From Prosthecobacter sp. (GTDB lineage Bacteria > Verrucomicrobiota > Verrucomicrobiia > Verrucomicrobiales > Verrucomicrobiaceae): a DNA stretch of 64,000 nt. The translations under genes and the position numbers were made by a program. Where the stretch lies: contig JABARQ010000004.1 of NCBI GenBank assembly GCA_019186985.1, positions 1 to 64,000 on the forward strand. The letters are read 5' to 3'. Under the pieces are notes generated by a model, which was not told where the DNA came from, ran no database searches, and saw nothing but the letters and a program-made list of their open reading frames with translations. Shown here in pieces: positions 26,528-50,446 of the stretch. Within the stretch, counting starts at the first letter, position 1; each line of letters starts with the position of its first letter.

Positions 26528-28336
26528 TCACTGTTCAAGGCAGGGCATCGTTGCGGCCCTCCTGGCGGCCTCGTTGATGCCTTCGGAGATGCTCACCCTG
26601 GAAGCCCAGAAATAATCGTCCTGATAGCGGTGCTGCTGGCGGATGTGCTCCTGCCTGAACTCCCTGGAGTCCGCGAGACGACGAAGCATGCCGACCAGAT
26701 CCTCCACCGTGTCGGCCTGCAGGGTCTGCATCCAGTCCTGCATGTCCGGGAAGGTGATCGACTCCGGGGCGTGACGGCTGAGGAAGACCACGGGAATGCC
26801 GAAGTGGAAAGCCTCCTGGCCGGTGAGTGAAATCGTGTTCAGCAGCACGGCCGTCTGCCTCAGGCAGTCCTGCATGTCCGCCTCGGGGGGGATCAGCGAG
26901 AAGTTGCGAGGAGGCCGCAGTGACCGGATGAAGTCCGTCTTGATCCGCACCTCCGTCTCATCCATGCCCAGGAAGCTGCGCTGCTCGGACTTGGGAACGC
27001 GCAGCGGATGAAACTTCACCTTGAAGTCATAGTCAGGCAGACGCCGTGCGGCCTCGATCAAAAGCCGGTAGAGCCGCAGCCCCTCCTGAGGGTCGTTCAT
27101 CAGGCTCATGGAGTCCGCCAGCAGGGCCATCGGGCGCCGCGACTTGAACGAGGCCTCCGTCTCCGCCTCCGTGCGCCGAGGCTCCGCCGGAATGCGGTGG
27201 CAGCGGACATCGATGATGCGTTCGACCGGATAACCCGCTTTAAGGACACGGGAAAGGCCGCGTGCCCCGTCGAGCAGCAGAAAGTCCGGGCAGTAGGTGA
27301 TCATGGGGTCCGCCAGACAGTCATAGGTGTAGCCTGCCACCGGAATGCCGAGGTCGGCGGCGGCCAGGCACCAGATGACCTCTTCCTCGTTGATCTGCGT
27401 ATCGGCGATGATCAGCGAGGGCCTGTGTTCCTCCAGCCAGGCCCTGGCCTTCGCCTTCAAGGCCATCCAGCGTGGATAGACCTGGGTGGTATAATGGGCG
27501 CCCATCTCCTCGAACACCTCCCTGAATGTACCGAGGAAAGGCTCGGCCCCGGGCTTGCAGCCAGGCAGCAGCACCTCACGCTCCCAGGCCTTCCACCAGT
27601 CCGCAAAGCGTGCCTTCTCCGGCTCCATGACACCCGCGTCCGGCTCGCCCAGATCCTCCAGCGAGGCGTTGATGATGCGAAAGTCTGGCAGCTTCTCCTC
27701 AAGCATCAGCAGGTGGCGCATCCGCCTTGTCACGCACACCGCCAGGGGCAGGCCTTGCTCGTCACGGGCAGGCCTCGCGTCCCTTGCCGCCACCGTGACG
27801 GACTTCGCCTTGTTTTTGCTGATCCTCTTGCAGCGCCATCTCTCAATCCTTCGCGCCAGCGTCCTGCCACGCCATTCCGGTTCAAGCACCACGGTTTCAA
27901 GATTGTTTTCCCGCGCCACCTCCTTCCAGAAGCCGAAGTTCACTCCGCTGCCCGCGGTGATCACGATGCGGTCAAACTTGAAGCGCCTCCAGAGGCTGTC
28001 ACGCACCCTGGAATTGACGATCCGGGTGAAGCAAAAATCCTGAAATCCACCCACCAGCGCCGCCTTGCGCATCACGCTGTCCCCCGGCCTGTCGCCAAGC
28101 TCGGGGCGATGCCTCAGAAAATGGGACATCAGACGCGCGACGTCACCACGCACGATCTCAATCTCCTCGTAGCTGACGAAGTCAGCCGGCTTCAGCCAGG
28201 CGGTCGCCTGGGGAACGCTGGCCCGGTCAAGCAGCGTGTCGTACTCCAGCATCACCAGCCCGCCCTTCTCGCCCGCGAGCTGACGCTTCATGGCCTTCGG
28301 AGCCAGGGCGCCCGTGATGAAGAGGGTCAGGGACAT
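26528..28336 (-). CDS. Putative GT-B-like surface-glycan protein (paralogue 2)
   Basis: A 602-residue protein sharing its architecture with the 584-residue gene at 20972. A unique N-terminal half is followed by SLIIADTQINEEEVIWCLAAADLGIPVAGYTYD, PDFLLLDGARG, a FKVKFHPLRVPKSEQ segment, IRSLRPPRNFSLIP and a C-terminal LLNTISLTGQEAFHFGIPVVFLSRH. The FKxHP segment and the late E-containing helix resemble GT-B capsule transferases. It is the last gene of the 18-gene minus-strand operon, 4 bp after the acetyltransferase gene. It probably handles the finished sugar or glycan; this is inference from context. Confidence 0.6.
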   Translation of the reverse strand: MSLTLFITGALAPKAMKRQLAGEKGGLVMLEYDTLLDRASVPQATAWLKPADFVSYEEIEIVRGDVARLMSHFLRHRPELGDRPGDSVMRKAALVGGFQDFCFTRIVNSRVRDSLWRRFKFDRIVITAGSGVNFGFWKEVARENNLETVVLEPEWRGRTLARRIERWRCKRISKNKAKSVTVAARDARPARDEQGLPLAVCVTRRMRHLLMLEEKLPDFRIINASLEDLGEPDAGVMEPEKARFADWWKAWEREVLLPGCKPGAEPFLGTFREVFEEMGAHYTTQVYPRWMALKAKARAWLEEHRPSLIIADTQINEEEVIWCLAAADLGIPVAGYTYDCLADPMITYCPDFLLLDGARGLSRVLKAGYPVERIIDVRCHRIPAEPRRTEAETEASFKSRRPMALLADSMSLMNDPQEGLRLYRLLIEAARRLPDYDFKVKFHPLRVPKSEQRSFLGMDETEVRIKTDFIRSLRPPRNFSLIPPEADMQDCLRQTAVLLNTISLTGQEAFHFGIPVVFLSRHAPESITFPDMQDWMQTLQADTVEDLVGMLRRLADSREFRQEHIRQQHRYQDDYFWASRVSISEGINEAARRAATMPCLEQ

Positions 28337-28340
28337 GGCT

Positions 28341-29000
28341 TCAAACGCTGCGGAAGACCGTGTCATGAATCACCGGGCGTTTCTCGATGATCCGGATGTT
28401 GGGAGTGCGTCCGACGACCGTGCAGCCGGAGGGCACCTTTTCATTCACCAGCAGGCTGCCGGCGCCGATGCAGACATTGTCACCGATCTCACAGGCGCCG
28501 ATGACGGCGGACTGGGCGCACAGGATGACACGGGAGCCGATCACCGGATACTCGCCCCCCCGGTTGCCGAGGGTGCAGCCCTGCATGACCACCAGCGGCC
28601 CCCGGTAGGTGGCACGGCCGATCACGCTCCCCACCGGATGAGCCAGCCAGCAGGCCCAGGGAAGCTCGACCTGATGATAGAGGTCGAGCCCGTGCAGGGC
28701 CTTGTTCAGCAGGTAGGACTTGTCGGCCAGGTCACGAAGGCCAGCCCTGCCCGCCTCATGCCCGAGCCGGTAAAGCAAAAGGGCGTACTGATCACCGTGA
28801 AGATGGTTCAGCCTCACCTGCCCGTCCTTCCAGAATCCCGGGTTGTGATAATGGGACAGGCCGTCCTCAAACGCCGGGAGCAGCCCATCCAAAAGCGTGA
28901 CAACGGTCTCCGCGTCCACGTCACCGCCATCGGGGAAGAACTGGTTGATCTGCCGGGCGACGTAGGCCCCGAGCCGGGGAATGGGGAGCGAGGTCAGCAT
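28341..29000 (-). CDS. Serine-O-acetyltransferase-like hexapeptide protein
   Basis: A 219-residue left-handed beta-helix acyltransferase of the CysE type. The helical N-terminal part (LNKALHGLDLYHQVELPWACWLAHPVGSVIGRA) leads into hexapeptide repeats (YPVIGSRVILCAQSAVIGACEIGDNVCIGAGSLLVNEKVPSG). His residues of the CysE active site appear in DLYHQVELP and LAHPVGS. No cysteine synthase is nearby, so sugar O- or N-acetylation is more likely. A paralogue is at 47219. The ATG at 29000 follows AAGGA; a longer start at 29024 overlaps the previous gene. Confidence 0.8.
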   Translation of the reverse strand: MLTSLPIPRLGAYVARQINQFFPDGGDVDAETVVTLLDGLLPAFEDGLSHYHNPGFWKDGQVRLNHLHGDQYALLLYRLGHEAGRAGLRDLADKSYLLNKALHGLDLYHQVELPWACWLAHPVGSVIGRATYRGPLVVMQGCTLGNRGGEYPVIGSRVILCAQSAVIGACEIGDNVCIGAGSLLVNEKVPSGCTVVGRTPNIRIIEKRPVIHDTVFRSV

Positions 29001-29007
29001 AAATCCT

Positions 29008-31134
29008 TCAGCAGACAAGGTCATGACGGCGCAGCAGCGCCAGGCTTTCCTCCACGGACTCCGCGGAGGCGTTGCAGCGGGCGGCGATGGCGGCCACGTC
29101 CTGGCGGCCGTCAATCTGGTCCATGATGCTGAAAAAATGCCGGTGCAGCTCCGGCTGGGCCGTGGGGTCGATGTGGATGCCGTAGCGGGAGCAGAAGACC
29201 TCGCCCCTGAACTTCGGCAGCGGAATCCCGTTCGACTCCCAGGCGTCGATCATCTTCATGACCAGGTCCACGCTGGCGTCGAGATGGGGCCGGGAGACAT
29301 GGGCGACATCGTCCAGGCTGGAGTGATATTCCCGGTAGGGCCAGTCCGGATGGCTGCGTGGCAGCACGCGTGAAAGAGACAGCATCGGCACTCGCAGGCC
29401 GGGGCCGTTGAACTGGCGTTCGTCATTGCCGATCACCTGGCGGAAGGGGGCGCTCCAGCCGTCCGGCGCATGTTTTTCAAAGGCCGCCTTCAGGCAGCGC
29501 GCCGCCGGGGTGGATTCATCAAACGGCATTTGCAGGGCCGGTGCGTTCGGCAGGCTCAGCATCTCCAGGAACAGGCCTCCATGCAGGTCGGGCATCAGAT
29601 GCGGATGCCGGGAAAGCCAGGCCGCCGAACCCACGGTTTCGGGAAGAATGAGCAGCCGGTAGGTGTAACGCAGGCCCCTGCGGGCAAGCAGCCGCCGCAT
29701 CACCTCGATGCCAGTGACGACTCCGCTCAGGTCATCCGCCGCCTGGGCCGGATGGCAAAGGTGTGCGCACAGGACAAACGAGGCGCCTGAACGGCCCTTG
29801 GCGACGACTTCGCCGACCTTGAGATGGCCATGGCTGGTGTCTGTGCGGATCACCACCCGATACTCGGCATCGGTGAGCGCATCGCGCTGAAGCTGCGTGC
29901 AGCAGAGCCCCCAGTCACGCTGGTAGTATTTGAAGGCAAAAGGCACGGCGTCCTCAAGGCGGGGATGCACATGCAGGTGCCGCATCAGCTCATTGCGGCC
30001 GACCACTCCCTCGAAGGGCATGGAGTAGGACATGACATGCAGGGGATGATCCCTGTCGGAGAAAAGCACACGGCCGTCCAGAGTCTGGAGCGAGGCCTCA
30101 CGGCAGGTCCATCGTTCCGGCACCAGCCAGGTCGAACACTCCGTGCCGCTGGCAAACTCGTGGATCGTCATCGGCACCTGCCCGGCAAGGGCGTTGAGCG
30201 CGATGTCATAGTCCTGCGAGACGATCTCGCGACGCAGCGGCGTCAGGGCCTCGATCATCTGCATCGGCGTCGCCCCTGAAGGCAGCGAAACCTCCGTCGC
30301 CGGCAGGTTGGTTCGCGCATCCTCCAGCGCCACCAGCTCGGCTTCGCTCAGTGGCGGCCCCTTGGCGGAAAGCCATGGATCAGCCTGGAAGGCCTCAAGG
30401 CCAAGCCGGGTGTACTCGGCGCAGCCAATGACGCAGACCTCACCCCGCCCGACCTTCGCCGACAGGCAGAGCCCTCGGTCACGGGCCAGCTTTTCCAGGG
30501 GCACTCCATTGGGCGCGCAGTTGTCCTGACGAGGTGCGCAGGAGTACGTCCAGGTCTGCCGGCTCTCAATGCCGTTGATCCGCACGTTGCCGGTGAAGAG
30601 CTTGCGAAAGCGGAAGGGCACGCCCGCCTTCTCCTCGATGTAATGACGGAAGGTGGCCCAGAACAGGCCGAGGCCGATCATGACGACCTTGCCACCGCCC
30701 TCCGCCAGCCGGTCATAGATGCTGCCAGGCCCGTAGCAGGTGCGCGGCAGGTCGGACAGCAGGGCCTGCGCCTTCGGGCCGATGCCGCTGACCGCGAGCA
30801 TCGGGTCGGCGGAACGCAGCGCCCCGGGCAGCAGGCGCGCATGCTCGGTGAAGTCTCCTAACGTTGAAGGTGTCAGCGCCGGGTCAAAGGTCTCGCCCTT
30901 GCCGATCGAGTAGGAGTAGGTGGGGACGAGCACGGTGCCCTTCGGGCCCACGGCCTCCATGAGGGCATCCAGGGCGGTCGAACAGGCGTCGGGCATGGAC
31001 CTGCCCCGCTCCGGATAGCCGAGCCTGCCGAGGCTGGCATGAACGAAGACCACGTCGCCCTCGACAACACCGGCGGCTCGCAGGGCCTGGACGAGTCCGG
31101 CCTGCGTGTAATGATGCGTCACAGGAGGCGTCAT
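29008..31134 (-). CDS. Fusion: AAC(3)-type N-acetyltransferase + DUF4910/M28-like aminopeptidase
   Basis: A 708-residue two-part protein. Residues 1 to about 270 match the aminoglycoside N3-acetyltransferase family (VFVHASLGRLGYPERG, GPKGTVLVPTYSYS, SIYDRLAEGGGKVVMIGLG), CoA-dependent N-acyltransferases also found in nonulosonic-acid clusters. From about 290 it matches the DUF2172/DUF4910 zinc-aminopeptidase-like family: SYSMPFEGVVGRNEL, then HLCHPAQAADDLSGVVTG and ILPETVGSAAWL. A small winged-helix-like segment ends it (DGRQDVAAIAARCNASAESVEE). The two activities are normally separate. It sits between the methyltransferase and a hexapeptide acetyltransferase, with 4-bp overlap on the methyltransferase side. 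A drug-resistance role is unlikely; amino-sugar acylation or deacylation fits better. Confidence 0.82.
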   Translation of the reverse strand: MTPPVTHHYTQAGLVQALRAAGVVEGDVVFVHASLGRLGYPERGRSMPDACSTALDALMEAVGPKGTVLVPTYSYSIGKGETFDPALTPSTLGDFTEHARLLPGALRSADPMLAVSGIGPKAQALLSDLPRTCYGPGSIYDRLAEGGGKVVMIGLGLFWATFRHYIEEKAGVPFRFRKLFTGNVRINGIESRQTWTYSCAPRQDNCAPNGVPLEKLARDRGLCLSAKVGRGEVCVIGCAEYTRLGLEAFQADPWLSAKGPPLSEAELVALEDARTNLPATEVSLPSGATPMQMIEALTPLRREIVSQDYDIALNALAGQVPMTIHEFASGTECSTWLVPERWTCREASLQTLDGRVLFSDRDHPLHVMSYSMPFEGVVGRNELMRHLHVHPRLEDAVPFAFKYYQRDWGLCCTQLQRDALTDAEYRVVIRTDTSHGHLKVGEVVAKGRSGASFVLCAHLCHPAQAADDLSGVVTGIEVMRRLLARRGLRYTYRLLILPETVGSAAWLSRHPHLMPDLHGGLFLEMLSLPNAPALQMPFDESTPAARCLKAAFEKHAPDGWSAPFRQVIGNDERQFNGPGLRVPMLSLSRVLPRSHPDWPYREYHSSLDDVAHVSRPHLDASVDLVMKMIDAWESNGIPLPKFRGEVFCSRYGIHIDPTAQPELHRHFFSIMDQIDGRQDVAAIAARCNASAESVEESLALLRRHDLVC

Positions 31135-32294
31135 GCGGCGGCTTCGGCGAGCTTCAGTTCAAGCAGCAGCCAGACTGGAAACTCGCTGGCAAAGGCGGCG
31201 TCACGCTGCGGGACATGCGGATCCTCACGGCTCGATGCGGGCTCCTCGACGCCCGTGATGACAAAGCCGGACTCCAGGAAGGGCCGTGCCAGCACGCTGA
31301 GCGGCGGGTTGATGCGCCAGTGCGTGTGAAGATACTCGGTCATCACCGTGAAGGGCCTCGCGGGATCACCCAGCCAGGGCTGCACATAGAAGACCGGGTG
31401 CGGCTCCAGGGACAGGAAGGTGCCGCCGGGCTTCAGCAGCCGCTTCACATCGGCGATGAAGCCGTCGAGATCGAGCGGCTTGCCGGGCTCATACGGCACG
31501 AAATAAAACAGCAGCGCATCGCTCATGTAGATGCAGTCGAAGGATGCCGCAGGCAGGGCGTCAAGGGCGCCCGGCGTGTTCAGGTCCAGCACCTGGAAGG
31601 TGGCGTCACCCTCCGCACGTTCCGTGGCGAGGCGGATGTATTCTTCGTTAGGGTCGACCCCGAGCACGCTGGCACCAAGTCGCGCCATCTTCTGGGCGAT
31701 GGTACCGGCTCCGCATCCAAGGTCCAGCACACGCATCCCCGGCTTCATGCGCCTGGGCAGCCATTCATCCAGGAAGCGGTCCTGCACCGCGCCGTAGAGG
31801 TTGTCCTTGCGGATGGCGGAGAGGTCCGGGGTGAACTTCTGCTGAAGCCACCAGGCGGCCGGATCACGTCGCTCAAAGGCGATGAGCTGCTGGCCGAGCT
31901 GCTGGTGATAGGTGCCGAAGCGCTGACGGTCGAGCAGCGATTTCTTGAAGTCAAAACGCGCGCGGTAGGCATCAAGATCATCAATGACCAGGCACTGGTC
32001 CTTCAGCAGCTTCAGCAAGGCTGGATGATCCACGATTTCCGGTTCGCCCCAGGTGGCTGCGTCGCGCTTGTAACGTGATGGATCGGCCAGCAGGCCGTCG
32101 ATGTGGGAGAACCTCCAGATCTTCCAGACGCGGTAGGTCTGCGCAGTGGCGTTGTCCGGATCGGCCAAAACCGTCATCACCTCGGGTCCCACGCCGAGAC
32201 ACTGGCGGGTGTGGACGTTCATGAGCACCCAGCGGTCCGGGTGCGACGCCGGGGATTCCAGGAAGGAGATGAGGTCCGGGCAGGGCTGGCTCAT
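31131..32294 (-). CDS. SAM-dependent methyltransferase with unusual N-terminal domain
   Basis: A 387-residue protein. The class I methyltransferase domain spans about 185-380: motif I VLDLGCGAGTIAQKMA, motif II LGVDPNEEYIRLA, and a DCIYMSDALLFYF motif IV region, then SLEPHP. The first 120 residues are a separate domain (LMNVHTRQCLGVGPEVMTVL, then KIWRFSHIDGLLADP) resembling small PqqD-like peptide-recognition folds only loosely. Overlaps of 4 bp with the ACP gene upstream and with the AAC(3) fusion downstream show tight coupling. The methyl acceptor is unknown: it may be an ACP-bound acyl group or the sugar. Confidence 0.82.
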   Translation of the reverse strand: MSQPCPDLISFLESPASHPDRWVLMNVHTRQCLGVGPEVMTVLADPDNATAQTYRVWKIWRFSHIDGLLADPSRYKRDAATWGEPEIVDHPALLKLLKDQCLVIDDLDAYRARFDFKKSLLDRQRFGTYHQQLGQQLIAFERRDPAAWWLQQKFTPDLSAIRKDNLYGAVQDRFLDEWLPRRMKPGMRVLDLGCGAGTIAQKMARLGASVLGVDPNEEYIRLATERAEGDATFQVLDLNTPGALDALPAASFDCIYMSDALLFYFVPYEPGKPLDLDGFIADVKRLLKPGGTFLSLEPHPVFYVQPWLGDPARPFTVMTEYLHTHWRINPPLSVLARPFLESGFVITGVEEPASSREDPHVPQRDAAFASEFPVWLLLELKLAEAAA

Positions 32295-32542
32295 GCGGCG
32301 GCGCGAAGTTTTTCAATCACCTGGACAAGGCCGCCGACGGTCTGGAACTGCTCCGACTGCATGTCATCGGCTTCAAAGCGGATGCCGAAGCTGTCCTCGA
32401 AATGGGAGATCATGTCGATGATGCCCATGCTGTCGATGACCTTGGCGTCGAGGTAGGCGCAGGCGAGCTTTTCCTGCTCCGTGGAGCCGGGAAGGCCGCC
32501 GCGGGAGTCGAAGAATTCGAGGACGGTTTGAGTGACGTTCAT
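32291..32542 (-). CDS. Acyl carrier protein
   Basis: An 83-residue acidic protein with the phosphopantetheine attachment site at Ser38 in VIDSMGIIDMI, followed by HFEDSFGIRFEADD, the helix II-III pattern of ACPs. It is a dedicated, non-FabD-linked ACP, since no fatty acid synthesis genes are near. The ATG at 32542 is chosen because the ACP fold begins there; an upstream GTG at 32575 adds 11 residues. It overlaps the methyltransferase gene by 4 bp. The AMP-forming ligase five genes upstream is the natural candidate for loading it. Confidence 0.9.
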   Translation of the reverse strand: MNVTQTVLEFFDSRGGLPGSTEQEKLACAYLDAKVIDSMGIIDMISHFEDSFGIRFEADDMQSEQFQTVGGLVQVIEKLRAAA

Positions 32543-32552
32543 GGGAGGAGGA

Positions 32553-33215
32553 TCAGCGTTCGATGGCAATGACACGGGCCGGAGCGCCGTCGGAGCCGAG
32601 AATGTTCAACGGCAGCACGACGAGTTCGACCTCGGGGCGGGACAACTGGCGGAGGTTCGTGCAGTATTCAACAAAGACGACGCCCGCTCCCAGCATGATT
32701 TTGTGCAGGGGCGAATCCTTGGGGCCGGTGCGGCCGTTGTCGGGGCTGTCCACCTGGGGCGTGTCCATGGCGAGCACCCGCACGCCGCGCTCCACCAGCC
32801 AGTGACCGGCCTCCTCGGTGATGTAGGGCTGGTCGGTGTAGTACTTCATCGTGCCCCAGTGGTCGGACCAGTCAAAGCGAAGAATGAGACGCTCGGGCCG
32901 CTCATCGCCGAGCCTCTGCCTGAAGTCCTCGACGCCAAACTCCTGCTTGGGCAGGGTGACGGGCGTGAAGTTGAGCACGCGCGCCGGCCCCACCAGCCAC
33001 TCCAGCTTGATCTGATCAATGGTTGGGCCGTTGGGGATGAAATGACGTGGCGCGTCGATGTGGGTGCCGCAGTGCGTGCCCATGGATATCTTGCGTGTCT
33101 CGCGGTTTTCAATCCCGAAGCGGCCGAGCTGGGTGATCTCCACGACGGGATGCCAGTGAACGGGGAAGGTCGTCATGCCTTCGTGGATGGGATAGCTGAG
33201 GTCGATGATGCGCAT
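32553..33215 (-). CDS. Cyclase-family metal hydrolase (kynurenine-formamidase-like)
   Basis: A 220-residue protein of the PF04199 cyclase family. The metal-binding signature HCGTHIDAPRHF (HxGTHxDxPxH) is intact, and DLSYPIHEGMTTFPV and VLAMDTPQVDSPD are typical. Members hydrolyse N-formylkynurenine, isatin or cyclic imides and lactams. In this operon, which also encodes a formyltransferase, a deformylase- or amidohydrolase-like role is conceivable but unproven. No kynurenine pathway gene is present. Confidence 0.86.
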   Translation of the reverse strand: MRIIDLSYPIHEGMTTFPVHWHPVVEITQLGRFGIENRETRKISMGTHCGTHIDAPRHFIPNGPTIDQIKLEWLVGPARVLNFTPVTLPKQEFGVEDFRQRLGDERPERLILRFDWSDHWGTMKYYTDQPYITEEAGHWLVERGVRVLAMDTPQVDSPDNGRTGPKDSPLHKIMLGAGVVFVEYCTNLRQLSRPEVELVVLPLNILGSDGAPARVIAIER

Positions 33216-33219
33216 GGGG

Positions 33220-34197
33220 TCAGGAGGCGGATGGCTTGGGGGCGAATTGACGGCGGATCTTGGCCGGGGTTCCGGCGGCGAGCGAATAGGGCGGAACGTC
33301 CTCCTTCACCACGGAATGCGCCGCCACGACGGCGTGCCTGCCGATGGTCACGCCTTCGAGGATGGAGCAGCGGATGCCAATCCAGACATGATCGCCAATC
33401 TTCACCGGCCTGCCCTTCGTGGGCGGCAGCAGCACGGGCGGAAGCTCCACCTCTTCGAAGATGTGATGGCAGTCGGAGACAAACAGGTCGGAGGCGGTCA
33501 TCACATGCCGGCCAAACTCAACCGACTGCGTGCAGATGATGAAGTAGCGGTCGCCGAGCGTCGTGCCGTCGCCGAGGTAAAGGTCGGCCGGCCGATCCTC
33601 ATCCCAGCCGGTGAAGTCGAAGGAGCCGGCAAGCTCCGGATAGTGCTGGCGAGCCAGTTTTCCACAGGCCCCGCCAAAGGCCTTTTTGGGCAGCATGACG
33701 ATCTTGCCATAACGGCCGAAGCTGACCCAGTTGCCGATGCTGATGCACTCCGGGAACGAGATCTCGCAGGGTGTTCGAATCTTCGACATCGTGCCGAAGC
33801 AGCGGAAGCAGTCCTTGGCCTCCTCGGGGAGCACGGCGAAGGAGCCGTCTTCGATCAGGCTGCGCTTTTTCGCATTCACGGCGGCGGCATGACGGCCGGA
33901 GATTTCCTCCAGGACGACCCGCCCGTCACCGCCCAGCGGCAGCCAGCCCGAACGGACGATTTCAACTTCGGCAGGAGCGCCAAGCTCCACCAAGGCGCGG
34001 GACACATCAGCGCGAAGAAGGCGGACATCGTCTGCCTTGTCGCCGAGGAATTCCGCCAGCAGCACAGGTGTTGGAGGGTTTCCGCCCTCGACGGCAGGCT
34101 CCTGAAACCAGGCCATGCGGGCGGTTTGAAAATGTGGAAAGCGCCCGGCAAGGGCCATGAGGCACTTGTCATCATAAGGGTGGCCGGGCTGGGACAT
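33220..34197 (-). CDS. Hexapeptide-repeat acyltransferase with novel N-terminal extension
   Basis: A 325-residue protein. From about residue 140 it is a left-handed beta-helix acyltransferase (CISIGNWVSFGRYGKIV, IGDHVWIGIRCSILEGVTIGRHAVVAAHSVVKEDVPP, then AAGTPAKIRR), close to the WbbJ/maltose-acetyltransferase group. The catalytic-type His lies in VSDCHHIFEE. The first 130 residues are not recognised and may recognise a carrier or sugar. It follows the VOC gene by 9 bp and precedes the cyclase gene by 4 bp. Confidence 0.82.
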   Translation of the reverse strand: MSQPGHPYDDKCLMALAGRFPHFQTARMAWFQEPAVEGGNPPTPVLLAEFLGDKADDVRLLRADVSRALVELGAPAEVEIVRSGWLPLGGDGRVVLEEISGRHAAAVNAKKRSLIEDGSFAVLPEEAKDCFRCFGTMSKIRTPCEISFPECISIGNWVSFGRYGKIVMLPKKAFGGACGKLARQHYPELAGSFDFTGWDEDRPADLYLGDGTTLGDRYFIICTQSVEFGRHVMTASDLFVSDCHHIFEEVELPPVLLPPTKGRPVKIGDHVWIGIRCSILEGVTIGRHAVVAAHSVVKEDVPPYSLAAGTPAKIRRQFAPKPSAS

Positions 34198-34206
34198 GAT
34201 GAGGGT

Positions 34207-34977
34207 TTATCTGAGTGTCTGGAAGATTTCAACCATGACGCCATCCGGCCCCTGGATCAGGTCCAGCAGCATCGGCTTGCCGCCGATCTCCTCCTCCATG
34301 GTTCCGGTGGAGGCCTTGGCCCCGCCTTTTCCAAAGATCCGTTCGCGGTCCTTTTCGAACTGCGTGCTGACCATGGACAGCACCCGGAAGCCCGGACCAT
34401 CAAGCAGGGCAGGCGCGGATTCCTGAACGGGAAGCAGCAGCAGCCCTGCGCGCCACTGAGGCATCAGGCTGGGAAACTCCAGCAGCACGGCATCAGGCAC
34501 GGGCGGTGGCAGGCTGGAACGGCGAAAGCCGAAGCCCGCCTCCCAGAACCGGCTGGCGGCAGCCAAGTCCGTGACACGGTGAACGATCAGGCTGGGCCGG
34601 GGCGCCTCCTCTGAAACCCACAAAGGACTGGTCAGACCTTCGATCCAAAGCTCACTCACCCCGGGCAAGGGCGAGGGACGCACGTCGACAGCCCTGTCCA
34701 ACCATTCACCTTTGGGCAGGATGACCTGCAGCGGTGCGGGCAGGTCTGAGGGAGACGGTTCCGAGTAATGAATCAGCTCCAGCGGCGTGCCTGAGGGTGC
34801 GTTCAGAAAAACCAGGGAAAGCTCTTCCGAAGCCGTGCAAAGAAACGGCTTCTTGCCGGCAAAGACAGGCAGGTGATGCTGCTCAAAACGGAGCTGCCAG
34901 TCCATCGACTCGAACAACGCACGATCTCGGGCCGCATCCGTGCTGCCCAGCACAATGTGACTGACGCCGAGAATCAT
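34207..34977 (-). CDS. VOC (glyoxalase/dioxygenase-fold) superfamily protein
   Basis: A 256-residue protein with two VOC-like modules: ILGVSHIVLGSTDAARDRALFESMDWQLRFEQH at the start and SLIVHRVTDLAAASRFWEAGFGFRR from about residue 125. The second module ends with a GVMVEIFQTLR metal-ligand-like Glu. The family includes dioxygenases, isomerases and bleomycin-binding proteins, so the reaction cannot be predicted. Overlap of 4 bp with the AMP-forming ligase gene suggests they act on the same intermediate. Confidence 0.75.
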   Translation of the reverse strand: MILGVSHIVLGSTDAARDRALFESMDWQLRFEQHHLPVFAGKKPFLCTASEELSLVFLNAPSGTPLELIHYSEPSPSDLPAPLQVILPKGEWLDRAVDVRPSPLPGVSELWIEGLTSPLWVSEEAPRPSLIVHRVTDLAAASRFWEAGFGFRRSSLPPPVPDAVLLEFPSLMPQWRAGLLLLPVQESAPALLDGPGFRVLSMVSTQFEKDRERIFGKGGAKASTGTMEEEIGGKPMLLDLIQGPDGVMVEIFQTLR

Positions 34978-36557
34978 GCCTGGGTCATCAGCAGCGTCCT
35001 GACCTCGCGGTTGAGGATCTTGCCAGTGCTGCCGAGCGGAAACTCCTCAACCTGTCTCAGCCGGGTCGGCACGGCGGCCTGGGCCAGGAGCCTGCGGCAG
35101 TGGGTAAGGATGTCCGACTGCTCGTCGGCAAGCAGCAATCCGGGCTTCAGACGCAGCGCCGCCGCCACTTCCTCACCGTAAAAGTCATGCGGAATGCCCA
35201 CCACCACGGCATCCTCCACGGACGGATGGTTCAGCAGCACCTCCCGGATGCCGCGCGGGCTGAGGTTCTGGCCGCCGCGGATGATGAGGTCCTTCTTGCG
35301 GCCGGTGATGAAGACATCGCCGTCGGCGTCGATGAGCCCGATGTCGCCGGTCGGGAACCATGCGGCTTCATCCAGCGTCTGGACCTTCAGGCTTTCGGCA
35401 TCGAGATAGCCGAGCATCCGGCAGCGGGTTCGGGCCATCAGCTCACCCTCGGATCCTGCGGCGGATTGAAACACTCCTTGTTCATCCGCCACCGCGAGTT
35501 CGACGCCCTCCAGCAGGCGGCCGACGGCGTTTTCCTTCCTGGGATGGGAGGGCGTGTTGGCGCAGAGGATGAGCAGTTCGGAAAGGCCGTAGCTCTCCAT
35601 GCATTCGACGCCGTAACGCGCCTCGAAGTCCTTCTTCAGCTTCAGGGCCAGCGGCGCGGTGCCGACACAGACCGCCCTCACGTTTTCGCGGCAGTAGCGG
35701 TGGCCGTCCTGGTCACGGTCCATGCGCAGCAGCGAGGCCATCATGGTGGGAGAGAGCCAGAGCGTGTTCGCCTGGTGGTCCTTCACGGGCTTCCAGAAGT
35801 TCAGGATCGTCTGCGCGGTGAAGGCGCAGGTGAGCACGACGCTGGAGCCAGCCATGAAGGGCGACATGAGCGTGTTCAGGTAGCCGCTGCTGTAGGCCAT
35901 CGGCCAGAGGTGCAGGAAGCGGTGGTCCGGGCCAAAGCCCATGGCCTTGTTGAAGGCGAGGGCGTTGCCAAACTCCGAGCGAACGCAGTGCACGACGCCC
36001 TTGGGCATGCCAGTGGTGCCGGAGGTGAACAGGATCAGCAGCAGGTCGTCATCCGACACGCCGGCCAGCGGCGTGATGCCGGCATCCGGCTTCACCGAAT
36101 CCAGGGTCCAGGTCTGCTCGGCATCCTCGGGATGGAAGCTCTGCTCCTGGCCGAGCGACACACGCACCTGGCGCAGCGAGGGCATTTTCTGCGTGGCCTG
36201 GAGGACAATGGAACGGGTGCAACGTGAGAAGAGCACCAGTCGTACGCCGCTGTGCTCCAGGATGTAGGTGATCTCGCTGGTATGCAGAGCCTGGTTCACC
36301 GGCACGGCCACGGCTCCGATGAAGAGGCAGCCGAAGTAGAAGGCGACAAACTCCGCCGAGTTCGCCAGCAGCAGGCCGACACGGTCGCCCTTGCCCACGC
36401 CCTCGGCCTTCAGCAGAGAGGCGGCACGCAGGCCCCAGTCATGCATTTGGGCGAAGGTCCAGGTCCGCTGGGTCATGGACTCAATGAGGAAGACGCGGTC
36501 CGGATCCCTCCGGAAAACGGCTTCGATCTGGCGGACGATGGCGTCGGAGTCAGGCAT
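34974..36557 (-). CDS. AMP-forming acyl-CoA/acyl-ACP ligase
   Basis: A 527-residue ANL-superfamily adenylating enzyme. It has the P-loop ILFTSGTTGMPKGV, the A5-like region ESYGLSELL, the A7 FPTGDIGLIDADGDVFITGRKKDLIIRGG and the catalytic Lys segment PLGSTGKILNREV near the C-terminus. It activates a carboxylic acid as acyl-AMP and transfers it to CoA or phosphopantetheine. The stand-alone ACP downstream is a likely acceptor. The acid is unknown. It lies 30 bp after the 752-residue gene. Confidence 0.92.
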   Translation of the reverse strand: MPDSDAIVRQIEAVFRRDPDRVFLIESMTQRTWTFAQMHDWGLRAASLLKAEGVGKGDRVGLLLANSAEFVAFYFGCLFIGAVAVPVNQALHTSEITYILEHSGVRLVLFSRCTRSIVLQATQKMPSLRQVRVSLGQEQSFHPEDAEQTWTLDSVKPDAGITPLAGVSDDDLLLILFTSGTTGMPKGVVHCVRSEFGNALAFNKAMGFGPDHRFLHLWPMAYSSGYLNTLMSPFMAGSSVVLTCAFTAQTILNFWKPVKDHQANTLWLSPTMMASLLRMDRDQDGHRYCRENVRAVCVGTAPLALKLKKDFEARYGVECMESYGLSELLILCANTPSHPRKENAVGRLLEGVELAVADEQGVFQSAAGSEGELMARTRCRMLGYLDAESLKVQTLDEAAWFPTGDIGLIDADGDVFITGRKKDLIIRGGQNLSPRGIREVLLNHPSVEDAVVVGIPHDFYGEEVAAALRLKPGLLLADEQSDILTHCRRLLAQAAVPTRLRQVEEFPLGSTGKILNREVRTLLMTQA

Positions 36558-36587
36558 GAAGTCGAGTAGGTTGGTCTTCAGGCGGAA

Positions 36588-38846
36588 TCAGCGCCCGGCC
36601 TCATTCCGGATGTGGGAGGCGAGAATTTTCTGGCCGACATCGTCCACGCGCTTGTGCAGCCATCCCAGGGCGCCGCCGAGGCGGTTGAAGACGGTGCTGA
36701 CGATCCCGATGGTATCGAGCGTCCGGGCCTGGTTCTGCACAGCCTGGTCCTCGGCAAGCAGCCTCACCAGCTGATCGCGGGTGGAGAGGTAGCGCTCGGC
36801 GATGGCCTGCACCAGGCGTGGCCGAGGCTGGCGGGTGTTGTCACCGGTGAGGTAGATGTTCACCGCCGGGTTGAGCTGCTCAAACTCATCGGGATCGAGC
36901 GGACGCAGACGGTAGTTCAGTCGGCTGTGACGGCGCTCCTGCGCGGCGAGAGCGAGAAGCTCCTTCAAGTCGCGGTCGAGAAGCTGCAGGAACTGGCGTG
37001 CGAGCACCTCCATGAAGGGTCCTTCCTCGGTCGCCTCCTGGAGGAACCAGTTGGTGCCCTGCTGGTCCTTGTTGAAGCCGGCGAACTCCAGGAAGGTCGT
37101 GGAATCGAAGCCTGACAGGCGCAGGCCTGCGGCGATCTCGACGATGGAAAGGGTGCGGTCATCCAGGCGGGCCAGCAGGTAGCCGGCCATGGCGGCGGCA
37201 CCGGCGGGCTCAGGCTTGCGCACATGGCTGCACAGATGCGCCACCTTTTGCTCCATCGTCATGCCGGCGAACTGCGGCAGGCTGGCGGCTCGATGCATGT
37301 CATCCGCGTAAATCAGCGCCTGGGCGAGGGGGTTGAGCGTGTGGGTGGCCGGGTGAAAGGTCTCCTTGCCCATGAAGGGGCCGTTGCCGGTCATGCTGGC
37401 CTTGAGAATCTCATAGCAACGGTTGCCGTTGGCATAGGAGCTTGAACCCAGGCCAACGTAGGCGGTGCCACGGCCGGAAAGATGCCGCTCGACCACCACT
37501 CCCAGGAGCTGGGCCAGGGACTGGAGGTTGGCGAGGTCGAAGACGCCGTGAATGCGGGTGGGGATGTCCTTGCCGAGCTGCTGACGGCTCAGTAAGGAGT
37601 CGATGGCCGGGAAGGTGGCCTTGAGGTCGGCACGGATGGAGGCGCTGAGGCAGGAGGGGTTGCGAAGCTGCAGGTCGGCCAGAACGGCGGCGGCCAGCGC
37701 GGCGCCGATGGAGGCCTGGTTCCAGGTGGAGATAGCCGCTGTGTCATTGCGCGGCAGTGTTTCATCCAGCATGACCAGGTAGCCGGTCATCAGGCCGAAC
37801 AAACCGCCTTCCACACCGCTGCGGACGACCACTCGGCCGTTTTCGACGGAGCAGCCCAGGGAGCGCAGCGTGTAGCACACCTTTTCATCCGCCAGGAGCT
37901 GGTCGGTCGTGCAGCGGCGTTCGCGGGCCACATCGGCCAGCGAGTTGGCCAGCAGGTTCTGCATTTCATCACCGCTCTGAGGGTTGGTGGGGAAGAAATA
38001 CCCGCCAGCATCCAGCGCGTCCTTGAGGGCGCCGGGGTCGCGCTGCTTGCGGTTGATGTAGGTGTGCAGGACGGTCAGCGGCGGCTGCTCCTGCTCCAGC
38101 GAGCGGAGGTGCTCGGTCTTCTCCGCGTTCATGAAGTCCGCCTGCTCATCCGGGCACCAGATGATCAGCCAGCCTTCATCGTCGTTGAGGATGGTGAAGT
38201 CGCGACCAGCGAGCGTGACCGGCTTTTTCTGCATGAAGCGCAGCGCCTCATGGAGGGAGATGCCCATGTTGGAGGACGTGGAGCAGACGACCGGCCGGGC
38301 GGCATACACTTTCCAGATGGCCAGGGATTCGAGGTCGATGCCATCCAGCTGCTCCGGAGTCAGCGCAGCCAGTTCGGCATCGGTGAAGATCAGGCTGGCC
38401 TGTCCATCGGCTCCGCGCACCTTTCGGGAACGCAGGAAGGCCAGGGTGTCGGCACGGCGCGAATCAGGGGTGGCTTTCTGCAGGCGGCGCAGCTCCTTCA
38501 GGATGTGCTCGCCCAGCAGGCCCAGGCCGTTGAAGCATTTTACACAGCTGCCGTAGTCCTTCCAGCCGCGCAGAAAGCGGATGCGGCGGCCGGTGACCAG
38601 ACCGGCCACGGGCGCGTCGAAGATGAGGTTGTCGTGCGTCTTGTCATAGGGCAGAAGGCTCGCGTTGTGGTCGACCCGGGGCTTGACCCCGAGCTTGCGG
38701 GCCAGGCGAGCCGTGAACACGGCCAGGTCCATGGGCTCCAGACTCTCCGCATCGCGCTCTTTGCCAATGATCACAAGGCCCTGGTCGGCCTGCGTGGTTT
38801 CATCAAGACCGGGAATGGAGGTGTGGAGGTAGTAAGATTTCGACAT
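36588..38846 (-). CDS. Unrecognised 752-residue protein
   Basis: A large soluble protein with no signal peptide or membrane helix that I can see. I recognise no family. Visible features are a CVKCF pair at about residues 101-105, a C-S-T-S-S-N segment after AIWKVYAARP, a Gly-rich GVEGGLFGLMTGYL stretch, GLGSSSYANGNRCYE, and a C-terminal third rich in Leu/Arg/Glu helices. Base composition and codon usage look like those of the neighbours. It lies 12 bp after the GDH-like gene and 30 bp before the ligase gene, so it belongs to the operon. An enzyme or a scaffold are both possible. Confidence 0.85.
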   Translation of the reverse strand: MSKSYYLHTSIPGLDETTQADQGLVIIGKERDAESLEPMDLAVFTARLARKLGVKPRVDHNASLLPYDKTHDNLIFDAPVAGLVTGRRIRFLRGWKDYGSCVKCFNGLGLLGEHILKELRRLQKATPDSRRADTLAFLRSRKVRGADGQASLIFTDAELAALTPEQLDGIDLESLAIWKVYAARPVVCSTSSNMGISLHEALRFMQKKPVTLAGRDFTILNDDEGWLIIWCPDEQADFMNAEKTEHLRSLEQEQPPLTVLHTYINRKQRDPGALKDALDAGGYFFPTNPQSGDEMQNLLANSLADVARERRCTTDQLLADEKVCYTLRSLGCSVENGRVVVRSGVEGGLFGLMTGYLVMLDETLPRNDTAAISTWNQASIGAALAAAVLADLQLRNPSCLSASIRADLKATFPAIDSLLSRQQLGKDIPTRIHGVFDLANLQSLAQLLGVVVERHLSGRGTAYVGLGSSSYANGNRCYEILKASMTGNGPFMGKETFHPATHTLNPLAQALIYADDMHRAASLPQFAGMTMEQKVAHLCSHVRKPEPAGAAAMAGYLLARLDDRTLSIVEIAAGLRLSGFDSTTFLEFAGFNKDQQGTNWFLQEATEEGPFMEVLARQFLQLLDRDLKELLALAAQERRHSRLNYRLRPLDPDEFEQLNPAVNIYLTGDNTRQPRPRLVQAIAERYLSTRDQLVRLLAEDQAVQNQARTLDTIGIVSTVFNRLGGALGWLHKRVDDVGQKILASHIRNEAGR

Positions 38847-38858
38847 CGGGAGCGGAAA

Positions 38859-40106
38859 CTAGCGGGACAGAGCGGCGCCGAGACGTTCCAGGGCCAGCAG
38901 CTGGGCGGCCACGGCGAGGGAGACGTTTCGGGAAGCGGCACATTGGAGCATGGATTGAGCCGTGGCAATCATTCGCGTGTCCAGACGGGCATGCGCCTCC
39001 TCGGCCGTCCACAGGGCGCCGCCGCGGTTTTGAGCCCATTCGAAGTGGCTCATCGTGATGCCGCCGGCGTTGACGACCACGTCGGGGATGATTTCGATGC
39101 CCCGGCCGGTGACCGTGCCCTCGGCGTCCGGGCAGATGGGACCGTTGGCGATTTCCATGATCATCCGGCACTGTAGACGGGCGGCAAGCTCTGCGGTGAT
39201 CTGGCCGGCGGTGGCCGCCGGGATGATGATGTCGGCCTTCACGGCAAGCACTTCCTGGGCGGAGACCGGCCCGGCCCCCGGGACCTGAAGCCCAGCCAAA
39301 TCTTTGCCAGCCGTTTTGGCGTCCCAGAGCATCTCGGCATCCAGGCCTTCGGCCCGCTGCCAGCCGCCGGAGGAATCCGCCGCACCGACCAGACGCAGAC
39401 CGTTCTTTTGCAACACCCGGGCCAGGTGCCCCCCCGCGCTGCCATAGCCCTGGACGGCGAAGGTCATGCCCTCAGGCTTCTGGCCGCGCTGGCTGAGAAT
39501 TTCGCGCAGCACGTTCCAGGCGCCGCGTGCGGTGGCACCGGGCCGGCCGGGAATGCCGCCCAGGGCCGGCGGCTTGCCGTTGATGGCGCCGGGGATGCAG
39601 GCGCGACGCGTCAGGTTGAACTGATCCGCCATCCAGCCCATGACCTTCGCATCGGTGCCGAGGTCAGGGGAAAGGATGTCCACATCCGGCCCGACATCCT
39701 CGCCCAGGGCGTTCAGGTAGCCGCGGGCGAGCTGTTCGACCTCACGCGTGGAAAGCTTCTTCGGGTCCACGCAGACACCACCGGCGGCACCGCCGTGGGG
39801 CAGGCCGTTGACGGCGCACTTCAACAGCAGGCGGAAGGCCAGGCCGGTCAGGTCCTCCTCACTGGTCGCCGGATGAAATCGCACCCCGCCCTTGGTCGGG
39901 CCGAAGCAGTCGGAGTAACGCAGCCGCCAGCCGGTGAACAGGCACAGGCCGCCATCGTCCATGCGCACGGGCAGCGTGAAGCGGCGCACGGTCTTCGGCT
40001 GCGTCAGGCGCAGCTTCACGTCCTCAGGCAGGCCGGACATGGCCAGGGCGGAGGCAAAGCGGGTGCCGCCGAGCTTTTGAAAAACTGGATCGATCGTTTC
40101 GGGCAT
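38859..40106 (-). CDS. Glu/Leu/Phe/Val dehydrogenase-like protein lacking the catalytic Lys
   Basis: A 415-residue GLFV dehydrogenase homologue. The substrate domain keeps Lys72 (PTKGGVRFHP), Lys96 (LLLKCAV) and Asp148 (LSPDLGT), and the NAD domain has GYGSAGG at 220-226. The active-site signature GGxKGG reads GGAAGG: Ala108 (codon GCC at 39783-39785) replaces the catalytic lysine. AAG/AAA to GCC needs at least two changes, so a simple read error is unlikely. Amination/deamination chemistry should be lost or altered. It sits in the nonulosonic-acid operon, 25 bp after the SpsF gene, where no standard GDH is expected. Confidence 0.9.
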   Translation of the reverse strand: MPETIDPVFQKLGGTRFASALAMSGLPEDVKLRLTQPKTVRRFTLPVRMDDGGLCLFTGWRLRYSDCFGPTKGGVRFHPATSEEDLTGLAFRLLLKCAVNGLPHGGAAGGVCVDPKKLSTREVEQLARGYLNALGEDVGPDVDILSPDLGTDAKVMGWMADQFNLTRRACIPGAINGKPPALGGIPGRPGATARGAWNVLREILSQRGQKPEGMTFAVQGYGSAGGHLARVLQKNGLRLVGAADSSGGWQRAEGLDAEMLWDAKTAGKDLAGLQVPGAGPVSAQEVLAVKADIIIPAATAGQITAELAARLQCRMIMEIANGPICPDAEGTVTGRGIEIIPDVVVNAGGITMSHFEWAQNRGGALWTAEEAHARLDTRMIATAQSMLQCAASRNVSLAVAAQLLALERLGAALSR

Positions 40107-40131: not shown

Positions 40132-40890
40132 TTATTTCACCTTTTGTTCGGCGCTGTACTTCTGCTCCACGTTGGCGTTCAGCGAGGCAAGCTCGGGCCG
40201 CTGCTCCAGCAGCGCCAGCACCTCCGCCGTGGTGATCAGATGATCCGGCCTCCAGAGGCTGTTGTAGACAGTCTCCACAAACTCCCAGTCCTCGGGCGTG
40301 TCCACCGTCCAGCGGAAGCGCGACAGGTCCGCGTCATTGACCCAGGACAGGGCGCGGAACTTCTCCGGATGATGGTAGAAATGCGGCGTGACGTGCTCAC
40401 GCTCGTTCGGCAGGTGCGCCTCCTGGAAGTTCCTCGCCAGGGCCCTGGCCGTGAAGATCTCGGTGTCCAGGCCCCGAGGAAAACGGCGCTCGAAGACGCT
40501 GCTCATGAAGTCGGCGGGCGGGTCCTCCTGAAGCGCCGCATGGAAACGCTCCAGCATCGCGTCGCACACCACCGGGTCATAGAGCGGACAGTCGCCGGTG
40601 ATGCGAACGATGACATCGGCGCCCGCTGCCTGGGCCGTGCCATGGTAACGAGCGAGCACGTCCTCCTCGCTTCCGCGGAAGCAACGGTAGCCAAGGCGCT
40701 CCACCTCGGCGGCCAGGGCGTCGTTTTCCGGGTTCGTCGAGGTGGCCAGCCAGACTTCATCGATCCGCTTCACGGAGGCCGCACGCTGCAGCACGTGGCC
40801 GATCATGCTGAGCCCGCAGAGTGGGCGGAGCACCTTGCCGGCGAGACGTTGCGAGCCCATGCGGGCCTGGATGATGGCGATGGTCTTCAT
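40132..40890 (-). CDS. SpsF-type cytidylyltransferase (probable CMP-pseudaminic acid synthetase)
   Basis: A 252-residue nucleotidyltransferase with the start TIAIIQARMGSQRLAGKVL and ITGDCPLYDP, matching SpsF. In Bacillus sps operons SpsC-G correspond to pseudaminic acid genes, SpsF being the cytidylyltransferase. Placement one base from pseI and downstream of pseB, pseC and pseG-H supports the same role. A second, NeuA-like cytidylyltransferase is at 48.9 kb in the divergent operon, so each operon seems to have its own. Confidence 0.82.
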   Translation of the reverse strand: MKTIAIIQARMGSQRLAGKVLRPLCGLSMIGHVLQRAASVKRIDEVWLATSTNPENDALAAEVERLGYRCFRGSEEDVLARYHGTAQAAGADVIVRITGDCPLYDPVVCDAMLERFHAALQEDPPADFMSSVFERRFPRGLDTEIFTARALARNFQEAHLPNEREHVTPHFYHHPEKFRALSWVNDADLSRFRWTVDTPEDWEFVETVYNSLWRPDHLITTAEVLALLEQRPELASLNANVEQKYSAEQKVK

Positions 40891-41958
40891 TCAAGGATGG
40901 GGTTGGGCGCCTTCAACCAGGTCCCAGGAAAGGGGGGTGCCGCGTTCCACCGCCACCCGCGCCCGGGCTCCCAGCACCTGCTCCAGATGCTTCGGATGCA
41001 GGCCGTGGGCGGGACGGATCACGCGGACGTTTTCAGGGGTGAAGGCCTCCCCGGCGGCGATGTCGGCCACGGCGAAGAGCGAACGGCGGAAGACGCGGCT
41101 CTTCATCTCCTTGGGGGAGACTTCGTAGTTCACCCGGCCCAGGGCCTGTTCGGTGACGCGGATGGCGTCCACCATTTCGCGGAACTCCCCCGGCTCCATG
41201 CTGAAGGCGGAGTCGGGGCCGGGCGTGGCGCGGGAAAGCGTGAAATGTTTCTCCACGACACAGGCGCCGAGGGCCACCGCCGCCACGGCCACCGTGCTGC
41301 CCAGCGTGTGGTCGCTGAGGCCGACGGGCGTCTGAAAACGCACCGCCATGTCCTGGATCGTGCGCAGGTCCATTTCATCCGGCGAAGCCGGGTAGGCGCT
41401 GGTGCATTTCAGCAGAACCAGGGGGCCGCTGCCGGCCGAACGAAGGGTTTCGACCGCCTCGCTGACCTCCTCCAGCGTGGACATGCCGGTGGACATGATG
41501 ACGGGCTTCTTGGTGGCTGCGATCTTCCGCAGCAGCGGCAGGTCCACGAGCTCAAAGGAGGCGACCTTGTGAACCGGCACGTCCATGGCTTCGAGGAAGT
41601 CCACCGCACTGGCGTCAAAGGGCGTGGAGAAGAAGTCCATGCCGAGGTCGTTGGCGATCTTCTTCAGCCTCGGCTGCCAGTCCCAGGGCATGTAGGCCTC
41701 CTGGTAGAGGTCATGCAGCGTGCGGCCGTCCCAGAGCGTGCCGCCGCCAATGAGAAAGGGCGGCTTGTCGCTGGCGATGGTCATGGTGTCCGCCGTGTAG
41801 GTCTGAACCTTCACCGCGTCAGCACCGGCTTCCTTCATCGCCTCGATGATGCGCACGGTAAGGTCGAAGTCCTGGCCGTGGTTCGCCGAAAGCTCGGCGA
41901 TGATGTAGGTGGGATGTCCGGGTCCCACCGGACGGTTGCCGATCTTGAAGTCCATCAT
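40891..41958 (-). CDS. pseI: Pseudaminic acid synthase
   Basis: A 355-residue NeuB-family enzyme condensing a 2,4-diacetamido-trideoxy-altrose with phosphoenolpyruvate. It has the start TYIIAELSANHGQDFD, VKVQTYTADTMT, the PseI-type LWDGRTLHDLYQEAYMPWDW, STPFDASAVDFLEAMDVPVHKVASFEL, and a C-terminal SAF (antifreeze-like) domain from about 290. The NeuB-like protein of the divergent operon has a different signature, separating the two pathways. The ATGATG start overlaps the PIG-L gene. Confidence 0.92.
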   Translation of the reverse strand: MMDFKIGNRPVGPGHPTYIIAELSANHGQDFDLTVRIIEAMKEAGADAVKVQTYTADTMTIASDKPPFLIGGGTLWDGRTLHDLYQEAYMPWDWQPRLKKIANDLGMDFFSTPFDASAVDFLEAMDVPVHKVASFELVDLPLLRKIAATKKPVIMSTGMSTLEEVSEAVETLRSAGSGPLVLLKCTSAYPASPDEMDLRTIQDMAVRFQTPVGLSDHTLGSTVAVAAVALGACVVEKHFTLSRATPGPDSAFSMEPGEFREMVDAIRVTEQALGRVNYEVSPKEMKSRVFRRSLFAVADIAAGEAFTPENVRVIRPAHGLHPKHLEQVLGARARVAVERGTPLSWDLVEGAQPHP

Positions 41959-50383: not shown

Positions 50384-50408
50384 CCCGCCGGGGCCATGCG
50401 CTGGCAGC

Positions 50409-50437: not shown

Positions 50438-50446
50438 TGCCGTTCA

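Follow-up and report, generated by a model that had tools for sequence, protein, structure and literature searches.

What do ten consecutive genes, among them those for an AMP-forming ligase and a stand-alone acyl carrier protein (ACP), contribute to a pseudaminic acid operon? The question is raised by a window of 64,000 nucleotides (positions 1 to 64,000 of contig JABARQ010000004.1) from a Prosthecobacter genome of 5.88 Mb in 55 contigs. Acyl groups shape how phages, antibodies and enzymes perceive nonulosonic acids (NulOs), and, to our knowledge, the genes behind unusual NulO acyl groups are largely unassigned. A first-pass annotation proposed that the ten genes build an unusual acyl group and transfer it to a nonulosonic acid, and knew of no described pathway with such a set. 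Here, this proposal is examined by comparison of genomes, protein families, predicted structures and published gene clusters.

Organization of the locus

On the minus strand, positions 47614 to 26528 read as a single operon, from PseB through a 612-aa terminal gene, in the following order:

46022..47614, minus: PseB-type UDP-sugar dehydratase (Polysacc_synt_2); homology begins at residue 176, true start probably internal
44853..46094, minus: PseC-type DegT aminotransferase
43341..44846, minus: PseG-PseH fusion, glycosyltransferase-28-like part and GNAT
42635..43354, minus: formyltransferase-like protein (Formyl_trans_C_2); proposed start 43354, ORF extends to 43741
41955..42638, minus: PIG-L-type de-N-acetylase
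40891..41958, minus: PseI (NeuB and SAF)
40132..40890, minus: SpsF-type cytidylyltransferase (CTP_transf_3)
38859..40106, minus: GDH-like ELFV protein, catalytic lysine absent (GGAAGG, not GGxKGG)
36588..38846, minus: u752, predicted divergent fold-type II PLP-like enzyme with large extra parts
34974..36557, minus: AMP-forming ligase with TSGTTGMPKG and GKILNR motifs
34207..34977, minus: VOC-like protein, weak assignment
33220..34197, minus: hexA, hexapeptide acyltransferase
32553..33215, minus: Cyclase-family hydrolase
32291..32542, minus: ACP; ATG start at 32542, GTG at 32575 possible
31131..32294, minus: SAM methyltransferase with N-terminal extension of about 175 residues
29008..31134, minus: AAC(3)-like N-acyltransferase fused to DUF2172/DUF4910
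28341..29114, minus: hexapeptide-repeat protein, not conserved with the cassette
26528..28366, minus: terminal 612-aa protein without Pfam match; glycosyltransferase is the earlier annotation's label

All ten genes of the cassette region (28341-40106) lie on the minus strand directly after PseI and the SpsF-type protein. From spsF to the terminal gene the spacing ranges from 30 bp down to overlaps, which confirms the earlier description of a single orientation with gaps of at most 30 bp; the last hexapeptide ORF overlaps its neighbour by 107 bp unless an internal start is used. PseB, PseC, PseG, PseH, PseI and a cytidylyltransferase, the last of the CTP_transf_3/SpsF type, are all present, and the upstream formyltransferase-like and PIG-L deacetylase genes probably belong with the cassette as well.

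Two further loci were observed in the window. A second nonulosonic acid locus (47219-52647, plus strand), divergent from the pse operon, contains hexapeptide, Gfo/Idh, CTP_transf_3, SDR, NeuB and UDP-GlcNAc 2-epimerase genes, and positions 10248-11888 (minus strand) encode a protein of 546 aa in which all three domains of Mur ligases are present.

Conservation and rarity of the cassette in the order

As far as their contigs were read, the gene order is repeated in three congeners, namely Brevifollis gellanilyticus (G033, contig NZ_BKAG01000010.1), G128 and G133. In B. gellanilyticus, tblastn places the gdh-like, u752, ligase, voc-like, cyclase, ACP, methyltransferase and AAC(3)-DUF4910 genes in the order of the window, with four other genes replacing hexA. 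In G128 the region is divided between two contigs; the part fetched reads from PIG-L into u752 on one and from u752 as far as the methyltransferase on the other, with the ligase matched in two pieces. The pse, formyltransferase and PIG-L genes stand directly upstream of the cassette in both of these genomes. The contig of G133 begins at gdh and keeps the order, including hexA, with a shortened AAC(3)-DUF4910 gene (L013:9063-11594); this ORF ends soon after DUF2172, so that most of DUF4910 is missing, and adjoins a DDE transposase gene.

The cassette is rare. At E<=0.001, u752 was found in 4 of the 239 genomes of the order, its own included, and the methyltransferase (E<=1e-20) in the same four. 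Wider draws, each counting the centre genome, gave u752 in 1 of 387 genomes of its own phylum and in 1/296, 3/235 and 1/46 genomes, one of the three being a 61-residue match with a stop. Since G033, G128 and G133 were not among the matches of the 387-genome draw, that draw evidently does not contain them and says little about the genus. A scan of genome contigs yielded nine u752 loci; since it used a pair of short peptide patterns, remote relatives could have escaped it. Plasmid searches returned nothing for u752 (E limit 1e-5), hexA (1e-20) or the methyltransferase (1e-15), and only four long-chain ligases of 32-34% identity for the ligase (1e-60). No u752 relative was seen in the viral contigs scanned, and no match below E 0.001 to the u752 model of the window in a viral structure library. 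In a Verrucomicrobiaceae MAG (L024, 1360-1800), u752 is represented by no more than 147 residues (80% identity); matches to pseI and PIG-L lie on a different contig of that genome.

The cassette in other phyla

Partly or nearly whole, the cassette also occurs in a Bacteroidales MAG (L018), a Rhodospirillaceae MAG (L019) and two Myxococcota genomes (L022, in genome G245, and G946). The Bacteroidales locus combines a pse part (pseB, pseC, a cytidylyltransferase, an amidotransferase set, pseG-H and pseI) with gdh-like, u752, ligase and voc-like genes, after which the contig ends. The Rhodospirillaceae locus encodes a u752-ligase fusion, pseB, a ligase-hexapeptide protein of 855 aa, PhyH, a weak cytidylyltransferase match and a NeuB-type gene. 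Both Myxococcota genomes carry gdh-like, u752-ligase (in one frame), cyclase, ACP and AAC(3) genes. L022 also has hexA, the methyltransferase and a separate DUF4910-like gene on the other strand; G946 has a voc-like protein 29% identical to that of the window, and neither hexA nor the methyltransferase was found in the 36 kb read.

In a second type, represented by L021 (Nitrospira) and L023 (Bacteroidetes), u752 is accompanied by an ATP-grasp ligase instead of the ligase and ACP, and by an amidohydrolase, a hexapeptide protein, a DegT aminotransferase and a protein of about 300 aa, 42-62% identical between the two loci. Glycosyltransferase, aminotransferase and hexapeptide genes surround these type-2 copies.

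The u752 tree groups L021 with L023 (100/99) and places the Bacteroidales copy beside Brevifollis among the Verrucomicrobial copies (96/98). Horizontal transfer is likely, as the two Bacteroidota copies are far apart in the tree, with the reservation that MAG binning may err. The u752-ligase fusions of L019, L022 and G946 form one clade (100/99) and are therefore counted as one event. Together, these data support the view that the cassette genes behave as one unit moving between lineages.

As a separate observation, the Bacteroidales pse locus contains GATase and His_biosynth genes (HisH/HisF-like, L018:2294-5454) and a protein without Pfam match that we take to be WbpG-like, a combination suggesting an amidine group there as well.

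Proposed activation and transfer of an acyl group

Most labels of the first-pass annotation held: Pfam recovers the GDH-like/ELFV, AMP ligase, hexapeptide, cyclase, methyltransferase and AAC(3)-DUF4910 proteins, while the VOC assignment is weak and the CysE-like label rests on hexapeptide repeats. The ligase (AMP-binding, E 5e-72) carries TSGTTGMPKG, presumably the P-loop, and GKILNR, which we assume holds the C-terminal catalytic lysine. The PP-binding score of the ACP, 20.8 bits, lies exactly at the curated cut-off, and the protein is not among the five PP-binding matches of a six-frame genome search; the serine of the DSM motif is present in 6 of 6 copies inspected.

The ligase is linked with transfer and carrier functions by the 855-aa protein of L019, a ligase-hexA fusion with, as judged by eye, an ACP-like end. 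Residues 454-578 of this fusion, which follow its AMP-binding domain, are matched in BLASTP by the N-terminal ~115 residues of hexA (hexapeptide, E 5e-11) from the window (4e-5), L017 (2e-7), L016 (9e-15) and L022 (1e-4), with no match for L015. The N-terminal part of hexA may thus be a remnant of the C-terminal domain of an AMP-binding protein. In hhalign, this part gave E 0.0008, a value biased by the presence of the L019 fusion among the templates; the value was 0.52, not significant, after its removal.

The best matches of the ligase are FadD-type and oxalate-CoA ligases, and the group loaded could accordingly be fatty-acyl and lipid-like. A substituent of this sort has been proposed for the flagellar glycosylation islands of Aeromonas group II, where the authors suggest a liposugar component (PMC7874193). 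Among the cassette proteins, however, Pfam finds no ketosynthase, ketoreductase, LuxC or LuxE match, and the fold predicted for the partner protein u752 is that of PLP enzymes of amino acids; a fatty acid as the substrate therefore appears quite unlikely to us.

In Brevifollis, four genes between voc-like and cyclase replace the hexA of the window. Two encode an FkbH-like protein and a methyltransferase, a third an additional ACP (seen in translation), and the fourth is another hexA, with 36% identity. G153 has an ACP2-like gene at the corresponding place after pseI-spsF, near a contig end. These gene swaps would suit a site at which acyl modules are exchanged. According to published work, FkbH-like enzymes form glyceryl-ACP (PMC7489565), and di-O-methylglyceric derivatives of pseudaminic acid have been reported for Campylobacter flagellin (PMC3958885).

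A predicted PLP-enzyme fold for u752

No Pfam or NCBIfam model matches u752 above its cut-off, NCBIfam giving nothing for any of the eight family members, and no convincing match was obtained among PDB sequences, where hmmsearch returned none. The nearest sequence signal is Pfam PALP, at 15.1 bits against a cut-off of 35 (E 0.015), in one of the eight members (L019), where it covers the stretch with STSSNMG. In hhalign, no match was obtained to four PALP proteins of the same genome (probability 0.3%).

For the AlphaFold model of the window protein (eight sequences, pTM 0.69), the best fold-type II match in Foldseek was serine racemase, second in the list (E 0.18, probability 0.91); in VIA-align, which re-ranks Foldseek matches only, the best Z was 10.5 (rmsd 6.8 A, 273 aligned), and the 50 entries shown are by title all what we take to be fold-type II PLP enzymes. 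The model of the L023 relative, built on the same eight sequences, reached pTM 0.82. It matched threonine deaminase in Foldseek at E 5e-4 (probability 1.00), with diaminopropionate ammonia-lyase close to that, and aligned in VIA-align with threonine deaminases at Z 19.7 (4.1 A, 303 aligned) and 18.5 (2.8 A, 287 aligned); 49 of the 50 titles shown again name enzymes that we would assign to fold type II, one being uninformative.

K103 and STSSNMG (189-195) are invariant in all eight rows of the alignment and lie near strand-loop-helix junctions of the model; by analogy with the motifs of such families, they are proposed as candidates for the PLP site, K103 for its Schiff-base lysine and STSSNMG for its phosphate-binding Ser/Gly loop. 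The RidA-type gene that overlaps the start of u752 in L023 is an expected neighbour for an imine-releasing lyase. By these models, u752 is probably a fold-type II PLP enzyme distantly related to threonine deaminase. The predicted fold of the family is that of threonine deaminase, serine racemase and diaminopropionate ammonia-lyase, from which it differs in having no significant sequence match to fold-type II PLP enzymes and more than 400 residues outside the aligned part.

The GDH-like protein and other putative tailoring genes

The GDH-like protein contains ELFV domains (E 3e-53 and 5e-42) and matches archaeal-type GDH models below their cut-offs. Where the solved glutamate dehydrogenase 7mfm has GGGKGG, it has GGAAGG or GGAGGG, and the lysine is absent from all six copies aligned, the G946 copy being excluded. 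The lysine of GG.KGG is assumed here to be catalytic in glutamate dehydrogenase; the protein is therefore not called by that name. The VOC-like protein has no Pfam match, and its five-row profile reaches lactoylglutathione lyase at E 0.047. The Cyclase-family match (E 6e-34) has metal-dependent hydrolases, kynurenine formamidase and isatin hydrolase as PDB relatives, the methyltransferase is matched at E 2e-15, and the acyltransferase combines Antibiotic_NAT (4e-32) with DUF4910 (8e-54). The CysE-like gene is considered peripheral, as its label depends on hexapeptide repeats and the gene was not found in the Brevifollis and G133 stretches. A role for CysE as O-acetylserine supplier of u752 was dropped, since the gene is not conserved with the cassette.

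Association with nonulosonic acid genes

Pse or other NulO genes adjoin the cassette in the window, G033, G128, L018 and L019, and in L023 a NeuB-family gene is located about 6 kb from u752 on the same strand. The cassette thus lies beside nonulosonic acid genes in three phyla. The exception is Myxococcota: no pse match was found on the 40 kb (L022) and 36 kb (G946) read around the cassette, and pseB, pseC and pseI matches are on other contigs. At the level of whole genomes, NeuB was matched in 8 of 10 (those of the nine u752 loci and of the window), the exceptions being G133 and the Nitrospira MAG; G946 has one match as well. NeuB is common, being found in 9 of 14 control genomes, so this co-occurrence is weak evidence.

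PseI (E<=1e-90) is found in 23 of the 239 genomes of the order, among them three of the four with u752 (Fisher p 0.003, a guide only, because related genomes are not independent). It also occurs apart from the cassette: G153 encodes a PseI 89% identical to that of the window but shows no match to u752, and in four congeners (L058-L061) the genes pseB, C, G-H and I are accompanied by no PIG-L, formyltransferase or cassette. Among the 20 genomes of the order with PseI and no u752, the pse loci of nine were fetched, some on short contigs; neither PIG-L nor u752 was found in any of them, and L065 shows a formyltransferase match that is weak (25%). PIG-L is present in the pse loci of G033 and G128, which have the cassette, and of G247, which has a u752 fragment; L018, L019 and the G245 pse locus showed none. 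Independently of these patterns, a locus without the cassette (L064:17284-18375) has, next to pseB, a DUF4910-like gene in which no AAC(3) part was matched.

The first-pass interpretation is supported in part. The conserved unit, the ligase and ACP motifs and the adjacency in three phyla speak for it; the Myxococcota cassettes away from pse genes and the absence of NeuB matches in the Nitrospira MAG and G133 weaken a strict tie to pse genes. The same Myxococcota copies, and the Nitrospira relative with its NeuB-less genome, would be accommodated by a separate cluster for an amino-acid-derived small molecule that is carried next to pse genes and never attached to the sugar; ligases, ACPs, methyltransferases and N-acyltransferases are common in natural product clusters. 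Against such a cluster stand the recurrent position beside nonulosonic acid genes in three phyla and the glycosyltransferase, aminotransferase and hexapeptide genes around the type-2 copies, and no exporter, condensation or ketosynthase domain was detected by Pfam in the cassette proteins scanned. We consider it improbable.

Relation to described systems

The initial statement that no pathway with this set was known proved too strong. An ACP and an AMP-dependent synthetase, as in the cassette, are encoded between pseBC and pseFGHI in Aeromonas group II islands, with methyl- and acetyltransferases in some strains; these islands have a 3-oxoacyl-ACP reductase, luxE and luxC, for which Pfam gives no match among the cassette proteins, and the portion of the paper seen names no u752-, GDH-, cyclase- or DUF4910-like gene (PMC7874193). 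Their target is flagellin, whereas the genome of the window has no Flagellin_N match; flagellin glycosylation was rejected for this genome on that basis, the assembly being given as 96% complete.

The neighbourhood of the Clostridium acetobutylicum DUF4910 protein CA_C2195 encodes a NulO synthase, spsF, a glyoxalase, DUF4910, an aminosugar N-acetyltransferase, an ACP and an N-acetyltransferase-HAD protein, and shares DUF4910, NulO synthase, spsF, ACP and N-acyltransferase with the window (PMC4000134, Table 2). It also contains an ATP-grasp ligase, as do the type-2 u752 loci; this gene and the Maf gene have no match among the window proteins scanned, and Table 2 of that paper, which describes the system at the level of genes, includes no AMP ligase or u752-like protein (PMC4000134).

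The viosamine island of Pseudomonas syringae, with ACP, methyltransferase and sugar acetyltransferase genes, yields an N-acylated, O-methylated amino sugar, and vioR and vioM mutants were characterized with mass spectrometry; it employs KAS III and a ketoreductase for the acyl part and dTDP-viosamine as the sugar, and its gene table has no ligase or PLP lyase-like gene (PMC3927599). In Shewanella oneidensis, ATP-grasp, methyltransferase and 3-oxoacyl-ACP reductase-like genes of the sfmABCDE set are required to modify flagellin with a nonulosonic acid-like group that bears a methylated substituent; the part consulted mentions neither an ACP nor an AMP ligase, nor any gene resembling u752 (PMC3765264). 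N-formyl and N-hydroxybutyryl nonulosonic acids are mentioned in a further source (PMC6388019).

In view of these four precedents, the kind of system is not new. The exact gene set with u752 was not found in the literature searched, an absence that weighs little as most subscription journals lie outside the coverage; none of the terms searched matched the text of PMC13317340. The u752 family is named nowhere in the family, structure and literature searches.

Proposed function

We favour, at somewhat better than even confidence, the reading that the cassette serves to tailor a nonulosonic acid of the pseudaminic type with an acyl group. The PLP-dependent lyase-like u752 would act on a Ser/Thr-type amino acid and, together with the altered GDH-like, VOC-like and cyclase-family proteins, make a small carboxylic acid. 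The ligase would adenylate this acid and load the stand-alone ACP, and the methyltransferase and AAC(3)-DUF4910 protein may decorate it. HexA would then move the acyl group from the ACP to a sugar amino group, perhaps one freed by the PIG-L deacetylase, with the formyltransferase capping another amino group, and the cytidylyltransferase and glycosyltransferases would place the sugar on the cell surface. The gene set, its conservation, the fusions and the motifs are observed, and the fold of u752 is a prediction, whereas every reaction in this scheme is inferred, as are the acid itself and the atom that accepts it; support is strongest from gene fusion and conserved order, and weakest for the acid and the acceptor.

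A sub-variant compatible with this tailoring scheme, to which we give nearly an even chance, has the acyl group added at the nucleotide-sugar stage, before PseI. Enzymes of the PseC, PIG-L and hexapeptide types often act on UDP-sugars, and genes of all three types are found in the one operon.

For the family as a whole, a broader idea is put forward tentatively, as one that we think rather unlikely: u752, as an undescribed PLP enzyme family, and its lysine-less GDH-like partner may provide a novel route, by way of an imine, to a non-proteinogenic acid, which would be carried on an ACP or, in the sister branch, joined by an ATP-grasp ligase and appended to nonulosonic acids, as a new class of acyl groups on surface sugars that phyla trade as a cassette. 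The cassette provides a testable gene set and a predicted fold for a protein so far unnamed, and the two branches of the u752 tree offer different chemistries of activation, one with a ligase and an ACP, the other with an ATP-grasp enzyme.
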